From Utricularia gibba (taxonomy: Eukaryota > Streptophyta > Magnoliopsida > Lamiales > Lentibulariaceae): DNA of 64,000 bases. The notes under the pieces are model-generated. The model was not told the origin of the DNA. It ran no database searches and saw only the letters and a list, made by a program, of their open reading frames with translations. Location of the stretch: NCBI GenBank assembly GCA_002189035.1, contig NEEC01000007.1, positions 1,612,001 through 1,676,000 of the forward strand, in the 5' to 3' direction. Position numbers and translations under genes: made by a program. This document shows positions 39,269 through 44,577 of the stretch, one piece after another (within the stretch, counting starts at the first letter, position 1; each line of letters starts with the position of its first letter).

Positions 39269-39433
39269 TATTAGAACACACAATACTATATTCGAATATA
39301 AAATTTAAATAATCAAGTATATAAAAAATTATAGATCAATAATAATTGATGATATCTATTTTTTTCTAATGTAATTTTTTGTATATTTAGATTTATATGT
39401 AATCATCCAACTCATCAAATTCTAATTTCAACA
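39269..39433 (+). mobile_element. Solo LTR related to the TRIM-like element at 42.7 kb
   Basis: About 165 bp, AT-rich, starting TATTAGAACACACAATA and ending near CTAATTTCAACA. It aligns by eye over its whole length with both long terminal repeats of the element at 42744..43282 (shared AAGTATATA, a T-run and the CTCATCAAATTCTAATTTCA-type end). No internal region follows, so it looks like a recombined solo LTR. No convincing target duplication is seen. Confidence 0.5.
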
Positions 39434-39769
39434 AAATCTGTTTGCTTCTGTGAATAAGTAACTTGAGATGAGCCCATCTCCATTTTAAGTACTCTTTTCT
39501 GCGCATATTTATTGCCCCCTGGGCCTTCGCTCTCTCCTCTCTAATGTTTTTGGGCTGCCACCTCGCCATGCCTGACTGCGCTTCTGGGTCAAACGGACCA
39601 ATGTCCCTCATGAGGCCTTGTTACCACACTGCATTCAATGCTGTCCATAAGATAACTACTTCATTTTCTTGTATGCGATATCAAAGCATAATGGATTGAT
39701 TCAAATTTTGAAAAATAAGTCCATTTGTGTATCTTTTGGAATATAAAGCGAGATAAAATTATTGCAAAT
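39434..39769. other. 3' flank of methylesterase copy 1
   Basis: It holds a segment (39656..39720) also present downstream of copy 2 (41226..41290). This marks part of the tandem duplication unit. A 72-codon minus frame at 39393..39611 overlaps the solo LTR and is probably not a gene. Confidence 0.5.
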
Positions 39770-40856
39770 TTACTTAGAGTAATCTTTAACAATTTCGAGT
39801 AGCAATTGGGAAAGTTGGTGGGGTTTGGAGATCATGGCCATGTGATCACTCCCCTGCAACTCCTTCACTCCATCTACTCCGCAGCTCTCCGTCATCCGGC
39901 GCTGGGAGTTGATCAGAATCGTCTTGTCCCCGGGGCACAAGATGTACACCTTCTTCACCGATCCGAAACCCTTCTCCGACAGCGGATACCTCCATTTCTC
40001 CTCTTCCAGAAACAAAATGCTTGGCCTCACCAGCACTTTTGCTAACTCCACATCCTGCCCGCAACAACATCAAACCTCAGACAGCGCCCATACGACAAGT
40101 ATTCCGGCAGAAACAGACCTCGGGAGGAGACGACGCGTAGAGCTTCGTAGCGATGCTTATTGGACCGAACGACATGGAAGTGAACCGGCCCCCTGCACTC
40201 TCCACCGTGGAAAACACAGTGTCCTGGCCTTTTTCCGGCGGCGATTCCTCTATAAACTGAAAATTCAAACAAATGCACAGTGGAGCAGCAACTTCTGGTA
40301 ATAATTTTCTATTATTTATAAGAATATAATATTAATAATTATGGTATGAAAAGAATGTTCGAATAGAATGAAACGTGTGCATATATACCTTGAGAGGCCA
40401 GTAGGAGGGCGGGTGGGCCAAATCCGGCAAGATAGCAGTCACATACACGGCCACGAGTATCTTCTCCGGGAACATTTCCATGGCGAGGCTGATGTTGAGC
40501 CCCCCCTGGCTGTGCCCCACGAGGATCACCTTCTCCGACGCGTCGAGCGAGCCCAGCGTGTCCAGCAGCGGCTGCGTGTAGTCCTCGAAGGACGCCAGAT
40601 CCAGCAGTTTCGTGGAATTGATGCCGGACGCCGCCATGTCGAGGGCGGTGACACGGTGGCCCGCCGCCTCCAGCAACGGTATCAGCTTGTACCAACACCA
40701 TGCGCCATGGCAGACGCCATGGACGAGGATGATATGACGCTTCTGCTCTCGGGATGGCATCTTCGTGGCCAGGGCAGAGCTTGAGCATGGCGATTGAATC
40801 TTATAGGCGGATGGTGTGCGCCAGAAGCGTGACGCAACTTCTTTATTTTCGGCCAC
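39770..40856 (-). CDS. Methylesterase (MES/SABP2-like alpha/beta hydrolase), tandem copy 1
   Basis: Three exons (40389..40856, 40119..40256, 39770..40054) give 296 residues. The alpha/beta-hydrolase core starts HIILVHGVCHGAWCWYKLIP. The nucleophile serine is in GHSQGG, the acid aspartate in LCPGDKTI and the histidine in GSDHMAM, so the catalytic triad is complete. The lid segment follows the LPDLAHPPSYW motif. The MES family hydrolyses methyl esters of salicylate, jasmonate or auxin; related enzymes act in alkaloid pathways. The exact substrate cannot be read from sequence. A 32-residue N-terminal extension before MPSREQKRH is unusual for the cytosolic members and might be a targeting peptide. 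Exon lengths are identical to copy 2. Confidence 0.9.
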
Positions 40857-41432
40857 AATATATATGTATTAAATCAAAATTCGTAACGTGTACGGAAGGC
40901 GCAAGGCATCTCGATACAGGATAACTTGAACCAGTTCATGACGTCATTTTTATATGAATAATGAAGCGTTGCTTACGTAACTAGCCAAAAACCGAGGCCC
41001 TATGGGATTTAAAATGTATTGTTTATAATTATTTAATCAACAGTTTATTAGTTAGGCATGAAGAATGGGATAACGATGAGATAAGGATAAGATGATGTCG
41101 TAACAACACGAAGTAGAATTGACTTATTGCACGCACGTGTGGTTGTGGTTAGATTCAGCCATGCAGGTTGTCCGTATACGAGGAAGGGATGTCTGGATGT
41201 TGGTACTAGAAAGAAATCATGAGGAATACTTCATTTTCTTGTATTCGATATCAAAGCATAATGGATTGATTTAAATTTTGAACAATAAATCCAATCGTGT
41301 ATTATGTATTGAAATCAAGGATCTAATACATAAATTTAATACATAATAAACATAAATTATATTAAAAAAATTCAATTCATTCGATTTGATTATTAATGAT
41401 ATACAATCTTTTATATACTTCTTTTTTTTTGT
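40857..41432. other. Promoter of MES copy 1 and 3' flank of copy 2
   Basis: The left part (40857..41040) matches the upstream region of copy 2 (42452..42610). 41176..41229 matches 43280..43333 and forms the empty-site counterpart of the LTR insertion described at 42744. The rest is AT-rich. Confidence 0.55.
40939..40946. promoter_or_regulatory. Palindromic ACGT element TGACGTCA upstream of MES copy 1
   Basis: TGACGTCA, a site type bound by plant bZIP (TGA-class) factors, lies about 83 bp before the MES start codon. The same site is kept in copy 2. The role is inferred. Confidence 0.45.
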
Positions 41433-42451
41433 TTACTTGGAGTAATCTTCAATTATTTCAAGTAGAAATTGGGAAAGTTGGTGGGGTTTGGAGATCATGG
41501 CCATGTGGTCACTCCCCTGCAACTCCTTCACTCCATCTACTCCGCAGCTCTCCATCATCCGGCGCTGGGAGTTGATCAGAATCGTCTTGTCCCCGGGGCA
41601 CAAGATGTACACCTTTTTCACCGATCCGAAACCCTTCTCCGACAGCGGATGCCTCCATTTCTCCTCTTCCAGAAACAAAATGCTTGGCCTCACCAGCACT
41701 TTTGCTAACTCCACATCCTGCCCACAACAAGATCCAACATCAGACGGCGCCCATACGAAAATTATTCCACAGAAACAGACCTTGGGAGGAGACGACGAGT
41801 AGAGCTTCGTAGCGATACTTATTGAACCGAACGACATGGAAGTGAAGCGGCCCCCTGCAGTCTCCACCGTGGAAAACACAGTGTCCAGACCTTTTTCCGG
41901 CGGCGATTCCTCTATAAACTGAAAATTCAATAACTACACTATGAAAAGAATGTTCAAATAGAATGAAACATGTGCATATATACCTTGAGAGGCCAGTAGG
42001 AGGGCGGGTGGGCCAAATCCGGCAAGATGGCAGTCAAATACACGGCCACGAGTATCTTCTCCGGGAAAATTTCCATGGCGAGGCTAATGTTGAGGCCGCC
42101 CTGGCTGTGTCCCACGAGGATCACCTTCTCCGACGCGTCGAGCGAGCCCAGCGCGTCCAGCAGCGGCTGCGTGTAGTCTTCGAAGGACGCCAGATCCAGC
42201 ATATTCGTGGAATTGATGCCGGACGCCGCCATGTCGAGGACGGTGACACGGTGGCCCGCCGCCTCCAGCAACGGTATCAGCTTGTACCAACACCATGCGC
42301 CGTGGCAGATGCCATGTACGAGAACGAAATGGCCCTTCTGCTCGCGCGGTGGCATCGTCTTGACCAGGGCAGAGCTTGCGCACCGGGGTTGAATTTTATA
42401 GGCACATGGCGTGCCCATGGACCGTGACGCAACTTCTGCATTGTCGGCCAC
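41433..42451 (-). CDS. Methylesterase (MES/SABP2-like alpha/beta hydrolase), tandem copy 2
   Basis: Three exons (41984..42451, 41781..41918, 41433..41717) give 296 residues with exactly the same exon lengths as copy 1 (468, 138, 285 nt). The triad is complete (GHSQGG, LCPGDKTI, GSDHMAM). Differences from copy 1 are mostly single residues, concentrated in the N-terminal extension (MADNAEVASRSMGTPCAY against MAENKEVASRFWRTPSAY) and a few surface positions. Both copies are therefore probably functional and recently duplicated. The core reads HFVLVHGICHGAWCWYKLIP. The unit repeats with an offset of about 1.6 kb, including promoter and 3' flank. Confidence 0.9.
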
Positions 42452-42492
42452 AATACATTGTTAAATCAAAATTAGTAACGTCAATCAATTCA

Positions 42493-42500
42493 TGACGTCA
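42493..42500. promoter_or_regulatory. Palindromic ACGT element TGACGTCA upstream of MES copy 2
   Basis: TGACGTCA lies about 42 bp before the start codon, inside the duplicated promoter segment shared with copy 1 (both continue to CTTACGTAACTAGCC). Conservation is partly due to recent duplication. Confidence 0.4.
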
Positions 42501-42743
42501 TTTTATATGGTTAATAAAGCGTCGCTTACGTAACTAGCCAAAACCGAGGCCCCCTGGGAATTAAAACGTCTTGTTTTTAATTATTTAATCAACAGTTTTT
42601 TCAGTGTGGAATGAAAAATGAGGTAGGGATGAAATAAGGGTGAGATGATGTCGTAACAACACCAAGAACATGACAAATAGCCCGAATTGACATTTTATGC
42701 ACTTGTGGTTGTGGTTAGATTCAGCCATTAAAGTTGTTCATAT

Positions 42744-43282
42744 TATTACAATACACAATCATTCATCTAAAAATAAAAATGATATAATTAAATATATAAT
42801 AAATTATAAATTACAATTAATAAATTGAATTTAATCTTTTTTAATATGATTCATATTTTTTAAATACTTGAACTTCACGTATGCTCGTTCGATTCATTGA
42901 ATTCTGAATTTTAACATGGTATTGGAACATTTGCCACATGGCTTGTGTGGGCAAGATTCGTGCTAGTCTAAGTTCAGGTTAGAAAAAAACAAAAAGATAC
43001 ATTAGATTTGGACAATAAAAAATTAGATTGATTTATGACATGATCACTCCTACAATTTTATATAAAAAAATAAGTATTAATTGGATCAAAGATCAATTCA
43101 ACTTAAGGTTGTATATTAGAATACATAATCATATATTAAAAATGAAATTGATATAATAAAGTATATAGAAAATTACATATCATAAGTAATCGATTGAATC
43201 TAATTTTTTTAATGTTATATACGTTCTTGTGTATTTAAACTTTACGTGTACTATCTGACGCATTATATCCTAAATTTCATAT
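42744..43282 (+). mobile_element. Small non-autonomous LTR element (TRIM-like) next to MES copy 2
   Basis: Two diverged AT-rich direct repeats of about 170 bp (42744..about 42915 and about 43107..43275) flank an internal stretch of about 190 bp without coding capacity. The left repeat ends TTTTAACA and is followed by TGGTATTGG, a degenerate form of the usual Copia primer-binding start TGGTATCAGAG. The element is bracketed by TTCATAT at 42737..42743 and 43276..43282, a plausible target duplication. The paralogous MES unit has one uninterrupted version of the site (about 41167..41183, GTTGTCCGTATACGAGG). Size and layout fit a terminal-repeat retrotransposon in miniature. Orientation is inferred from the primer site. 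Confidence 0.62.
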
Positions 43283-44577
43283 ACAAGGAAGGGATGTATG
43301 GATGTTGGTACTAGAAATAAATCATGAGGAATGGAGTACTGGTTGCTGAGCATTTCCATTGCAGAGTGGTGCATCTCAGAATAGGGTATCAGTGTTTTCA
43401 TTCTCAATACCTTAATTAGAGTACCTGGAAAAGTTACAATGAGATTGATGTTTATCATCATGGATGTGTAACTTGAAGACCCAATGGTTAAGGTGTTAGT
43501 CGACTCACATGTGCATAAGGAAGAATTACAACCTTTTCTGGGCAAAAATATCATGCTAAGGAAGGTCTGGTTGCACTATTCTAGGAGAAGATTGAATGTA
43601 TTTTAACAAACTTTTGAGTGGCATGTCTCTTGTATCCATGAATACTGTGTGTGTTGAATGAAAACCAGTTTTTTCCCTCTCCCTCATCATATCAGTGATG
43701 CATCTTTGCTCCACCACTCATTCTAACACAACCTGCACATCAGCATTGCTTGTCAATACACTCATGGAAGATGTCTCACCAAGGACATGTAAAAGCCTAT
43801 GGAAATGTCTGCAAGTCGCGTCATACACAAAAAAGCCAAAAACAGCATGGGTTTCCAAGCAAATGCATCATCCATCAGTCTGCAGATGACTGCCTTGTTG
43901 AAAGTAATGTTGTTTTTCTAGGCGGCTTGGATTTTGGAAATGGCATGGGAGTTGTAGATGGTAATCTTCCCTGTTTTAATAAAGAAAGAGGGTAACGATG
44001 AGCTCTGCAACACAGTGAGAACAGCGAATAAAGAGCAATCTTGAAGATTATTAACACACTGAGGTTTTCTGATTGTTTCTCTCTGTGTATGTGTACGGTG
44101 TGCGGTGGATTTGCCCAGCTTCTCTCTATAATTTGTGCAGCTTCTCTCTGCCAGGCCCTTAATTTCCAGTGGGAGGCTAAGCTGGATCCATGCCCTTAAT
44201 GAAACCTCAGTGACATGAAACATAGCAGATAGGAAGCTTGTTTGAAGCAGTCAATGGAAACGATGATGTTAAATAATAAAATATGGTTATTGAAGCAGTC
44301 AATGTAAACGAGTAGCAACAACACTGCTATGAAAAGGGTTATTACATTTCAGCAGTCAGCAGCATGAAGCGAAAAATAATTTATATCCAGAGGTATGGGC
44401 TTCCGTGGAGAGCAAATTTTGTAGGACCGGACACGGGCCAAGTCAGACGTACAAACGCAAGAAGGAGATGGAGGGGCCCGAGTCAACAATGGTGGCGAGG
44501 CAAGCCACTCACTGAATTGAACATTCCACGCGTTTGAAACTTATCCACCGAGCTTGCAGCAGCAAGCTTCCACTCTT
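43283..44577. other. Intergenic region before the HIPP gene
   Basis: 43283..43333 belongs to the MES duplication boundary. The remainder shows only short frames (43270..44223) with no family resemblance. 44380..44577 is the HIPP promoter. Confidence 0.45.

Follow-up and report, generated by a model that had tools for sequence, protein, structure and literature searches.

A degenerate TRIM retroelement beside a tandem esterase pair in Utricularia gibba, and fusions of TRIM copies with a Copia element at the primer site

In a survey of plant TRIM elements, Gao et al. 2016 (PMC4717578) described 289 subfamilies and reported 5-bp target duplications; 11 of the 289 had longer relatives, with LTRs 79-98% identical to those of the TRIM, and 278 had no coding relative that could be found by similarity. 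The dispersed Utricularia gibba family that we describe here is like these plant TRIMs in its two short LTRs, non-coding interior and iMet-type primer site, and also in its 5-bp target duplications, its occurrence near a gene and its tandem LTR-interior-LTR arrays. Judged by its anatomy, the element in our window belongs to this known kind. The case differs from the 11 subfamilies with longer relatives in that the coding element, a Copia, has a block at the primer site in common with the TRIM and not an LTR; it does not carry the TRIM's LTR at both ends, and its own LTR is unrelated. Cassandra (PMC7215508), whose autonomous partner is called unknown, resembles our family in its TRIM anatomy and tandem arrays but has a 5S rRNA in its LTR, and retrozymes (PMC4918200), which are likewise small non-autonomous plant LTR elements, differ in having a hammerhead ribozyme there. 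In the eight loci tested here, including one that spans the interior of the window's element (L001), there was no Rfam match at the gathering threshold, either to 5S rRNA or to a hammerhead.

Fusions of different LTR elements are known from complex Triticeae elements and from VejuL and BARE2, as named by Sabot and Schulman (PMC1950507); the ones for which template switching has been argued have target duplications and near-identical outer LTRs. The TRIM/Copia chimeras that we found are also fusions of different LTR elements, but show neither of these two features. LTR swapping, in which autonomous and non-autonomous elements exchange LTRs, was reportedly described in soybean by Du et al. in 2010; in our chimeras, in contrast, the primer site is the point where a TRIM meets a Copia whose LTRs are unrelated to its own. 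Fusion of a TRIM and a Copia exactly at this site is a new observation here.

The window is the whole stretch of 64,000 nucleotides that we analysed, and the features discussed below are located in it as follows.

39269 to 39433, plus strand: solo LTR of the TRIM family, flanks AACTC/AAATC (4/5 match)
39657 to 41227, unstranded: tandem unit 1 (empty), with an esterase gene (Pfam Abhydrolase) on the minus strand
41167 to 41183, plus strand: paralogous empty site in unit 1, with a single CGTAT at 41173-41177
41227 to 43332, unstranded: tandem unit 2, which carries the TRIM; first esterase exon at 41954-42451
42739 to 42743, plus strand: 5' target-site copy CATAT, boundary set by family copies and the alignment of copy L036 with the window
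42744 to 42916, plus strand: 5' LTR, 173 bp, start TATTACAATAC (family TGTTAGAATAC), end TTTTAACA
42917 to 42928, plus strand: degenerate primer-binding site TGGTATTGGAAC (family form TGGTATCAGAGC, tRNA-iMet type)
42917 to 43113, plus strand: interior of 197 bp, non-coding, with homology to the interiors of family copies
43094 to 43113, plus strand: degenerate polypurine-tract region CAATTCAACTTAAGGTTGTA (family form CAGTTCGACTTGAGGGCGGG)
43114 to 43279, plus strand: 3' LTR, 166 bp, whose eroded 3' end runs into the target copy
43278 to 43282, plus strand: 3' target-site copy CATAT

The element (42744-43279, 536 bp) has a degenerate LTR-internal-LTR structure, and its anatomy confirms what an earlier note on this DNA had called a TRIM-like retroelement as an old, degenerate TRIM. 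The primer site, which we take to be complementary to tRNA-iMet, adjoins the end of the 5' LTR without a gap, and the 536 bp contain no ORF as long as 90 aa. The LTR termini have eroded to TA...CA, where the family has TG...CA. The TTCATAT repeats that were said to flank the element are present, as a 7-bp match between 42737-42743 and 43276-43282, but the target duplication, judged by the family boundaries, is probably only the 5-bp core CATAT, and the extra TT and 'CA' around it would be leftovers of the eroded 3' LTR end. The two direct repeats can be aligned with 74% identity over 166 bases, with a local alignment score of 100; none of 500 dinucleotide shuffles scored above 50. The LTRs have a G+C content of just 17-20%, as might be expected if these were chance repeats in AT-rich DNA and not an element at all, but that reading is refuted by the shuffle control together with the zero-match junction controls and target duplications in the family described next, and we give it practically no credence.

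A search of the assembly (100 Mb) gave 45 matches, and a rough first look gave 480 candidates. A better-preserved copy (L036) aligns end to end with window positions 42746-43279 (69% identity, E 4e-58). When the family copies are oriented, the LTRs are 175 bp long, bounded by TGTTAG...CAACA, with TGTTAGAATACACAATC at the start and CCTGAATTTCAACA at the end, followed by TGGTATCAGAGC. The junction of LTR and primer site had 35 matches in the 100-Mb assembly at up to 3 mismatches, and the junction of the tract GACTTGAGGGCGGG with the TGTTAG of the 3' LTR had 27, while the reversed-pattern controls had none. At least 133 LTR 3' ends were recognisable per 100 Mb (reversed-pattern control 0), so the suggestion that the family might be small does not hold. 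Twelve complete copies of 463-571 bp were dissected, all below the TRIM limit of about 1 kb, just as the LTR length falls in the TRIM range of about 100-250 bp. The 5-bp target duplication was perfect in seven of them and matched at 4/5 bases in another two; in total, 51 positions matched where 22.6 were expected, and none of 10,000 shuffles reached this number. Solo LTRs with perfect target duplications were also found (CGTAT at L068, GATAT at L069); the possibility that these two loci were Copia LTR pairs was considered and rejected. The genome-wide check proposed in the note thus yielded other copies with the same boundaries, as full elements and solo LTRs, with target duplications.

Two near-identical tandem TRIM arrays, L020 and L021 (G000:C317:1546191 and 1524628), lie about 21.5 kb apart, apparently through segmental duplication of one array. 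In the window, a gap of 223 bp separates the solo LTR at 39269-39433 from the left end of unit 1. At 41303-41432, unit 2 contains some 94 bp of additional AT-rich sequence, with weak reverse similarity to the TRIM LTR; we did not call the fragment 41335-41420 a reversed TRIM LTR, as it is too short and too AT-rich.

The two tandem units abut, and the genes in both are alpha/beta hydrolases. A search with the unit 2 exon found salicylic acid-binding protein 2 (SABP2) and hydroxynitrile lyases as relatives, a sequence similarity in keeping with a methylesterase. In unit 2, the TRIM sits upstream of the esterase, about 290 bp from the first exon found. At the corresponding place, from position 41166, unit 1 reads GGTTGTCCGTATACGAGG where unit 2 has GTTGTTCATAT, the element, and CATATACAAGG, and the flanks of this site can be aligned with unit 2 on both sides; its CGTAT differs by one base from the CATAT at the element. 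A genome-wide search found no paralogous copy of the upstream region beyond unit 1. Because unit 1 has one target copy and no remnant of an element, it was most likely never occupied, and the insertion therefore came after the duplication. Both the matching empty site and the possibility of ordering the two events from the window alone, as the earlier note had it, are borne out; naive LTR dating would reverse the order and has to be reconciled with it through the mutation spectrum. The second exon of unit 1 (39770-40268) has a 1-base insertion relative to unit 2 that breaks the frame, so that the TRIM-free unit is the likelier pseudogene of the two, or else contains an assembly error.

The K2P distance between the LTRs is 0.33 (0.23-0.47), whereas that between the non-coding parts of the paralogues is 0.13 (0.10-0.17), and their exons 1 and 2 have Ks values of 0.17 and 0.09, respectively; taken alone, the larger LTR divergence would place the insertion before the duplication. 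However, 30 of 42 changes in the window LTRs relative to the family majority base are C>T or G>A, and the two LTRs differ at 23/37 family C/G sites (62%) against 4/95 A/T sites (4%; p=2e-12), and this concentration at C/G sites makes the excess a deamination-like C>T/G>A decay. At A/T sites the LTR difference is 4-5%, a figure somewhat lowered by limiting it to family-conserved sites, which is below the 12% of the paralogues over all sites. Transversion distances overlap (LTRs 0.085, 0.04-0.14; paralogues 0.061, 0.04-0.09), and A<->T changes are somewhat but not significantly higher in the LTRs (8/118 vs 7/249, p=0.09). The paralogues may also have been kept similar by gene conversion between the two units. 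LTRs usually evolve at about a twofold rate, which would also remove the conflict with the paralogue clock.

We therefore consider it very probable that an old, non-autonomous TRIM, copied in trans, inserted upstream of one esterase after the pair had formed and then underwent C>T decay. A Pol II transcript of the TRIM, primed by tRNA-iMet, would have been copied by the reverse transcriptase of another element, our best guess for which would be a member of the Copia superfamily. Integration with a 5-bp target duplication would have followed, and later decay would have been mainly C>T at presumably methylated cytosines. The TRIM may influence the esterase gene. If the insertion had instead preceded the duplication, and an empty haplotype had later restored the site in unit 1 through gene conversion or unequal exchange, the raw LTR distance would be explained and so would the patchy identity of the paralogues (94.8% on the exon 2 side, 85.7% upstream), which is as expected from conversion. 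That order requires that an empty allele persisted for long, and the C/G excess and the usual LTR rate each dissolve the clock conflict that speaks for it, so that we regard it as very unlikely.

Thirty junctions of TRIM LTR and primer site were read. In 25 of them the TRIM interior follows, in four the leader and gag of a single Copia family, and one could not be assigned. In the four chimeric loci (L064-L067), the TRIM LTR joins the Copia leader and gag exactly at the primer site, and two of them (L065 and L066) also have the reciprocal junction of Copia LTR, primer site and TRIM interior. L064 has the order TRIM LTR-primer site-gag-pol-Copia LTR, while in L065 and L066 the order is Copia LTR-primer site-TRIM interior-TRIM LTR, and then gag. 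The Copia is about 5 kb long and contains gag, integrase, SH3-like and RVT_2 domains, with the integrase ahead of the reverse transcriptase. We rejected the idea that the four loci are autonomous relatives sharing the TRIM LTR, since the Copia carries its own LTR of about 300 bp (TGTTGGAGATC...), in copies about 4.98 kb apart, and blastn shows nothing in common between this LTR and that of the TRIM. The only block shared by TRIM and Copia is CAACATGGTATCAGAGC, about 17 bp at the primer site. Copia leaders also occur repeatedly in one orientation, in steps of mostly 3.1-5.7 kb (G000:C477:104669-192129; also C15, C39 and C513), which suggests tandem Copia arrays.

In a tree built from gag, the four chimeras occupy three separate positions, interspersed with ordinary Copia copies, and a single clade of chimeras is rejected (p-AU 1.65e-7); chimera formation would thus take at least three changes in the tree, although the three could include losses. 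Plus-strand strong-stop transfer pairs through the complement of the primer site, so exchange between TRIM and Copia cDNAs in one particle would give the junctions observed. The Copia would then be a candidate mobiliser of the TRIM, whose co-packaged cDNAs swapped strands with its own at the shared site; the four exact junctions, two of them reciprocal, and the rejection of one origin fit this reading, which we hold only tentatively. Against it, L064 has no target duplication (its flanks are GAGCA and ACGAG) and its outer LTRs are unlike, the outer Copia LTRs of L066 separate in the tree, and the partner is not significantly specific by counts of exact CATGGTATCAGAGC sites: this Copia supplies 56 of the 92 in the assembly, so its repeated choice as partner is not surprising. 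By the criteria of PMC1950507, the missing target duplication and unlike outer LTRs of L064 favour recombination between integrated copies. Ectopic recombination at the shared block between TRIM and Copia copies already integrated in the genome, which would be silent on mobilisation, is also in line with the inverted fragments in L066 (between the TRIM LTR and gag) and in L067, but the block is short to have been used independently at least three times. We put its chance of being the explanation at about even, and recombination of this kind is at least as likely as mobilisation by the Copia. The fuller proposal, that the chimeras preserve traces of plus-strand transfer between molecules in shared virus-like particles and mark the TRIM's mobiliser by a recombination footprint and not by LTR similarity, is doubtful.

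The TRIM element itself is ordinary. Its abutting tandem unit provides a local check on LTR dating: an age taken from the raw LTR distance is some 2.5 times too high relative to the paralogues, and almost all of this excess comes from C/G sites. For the many TRIMs that have no coding relative by similarity, primer-site junctions offer another way to seek the partners that mobilise them.
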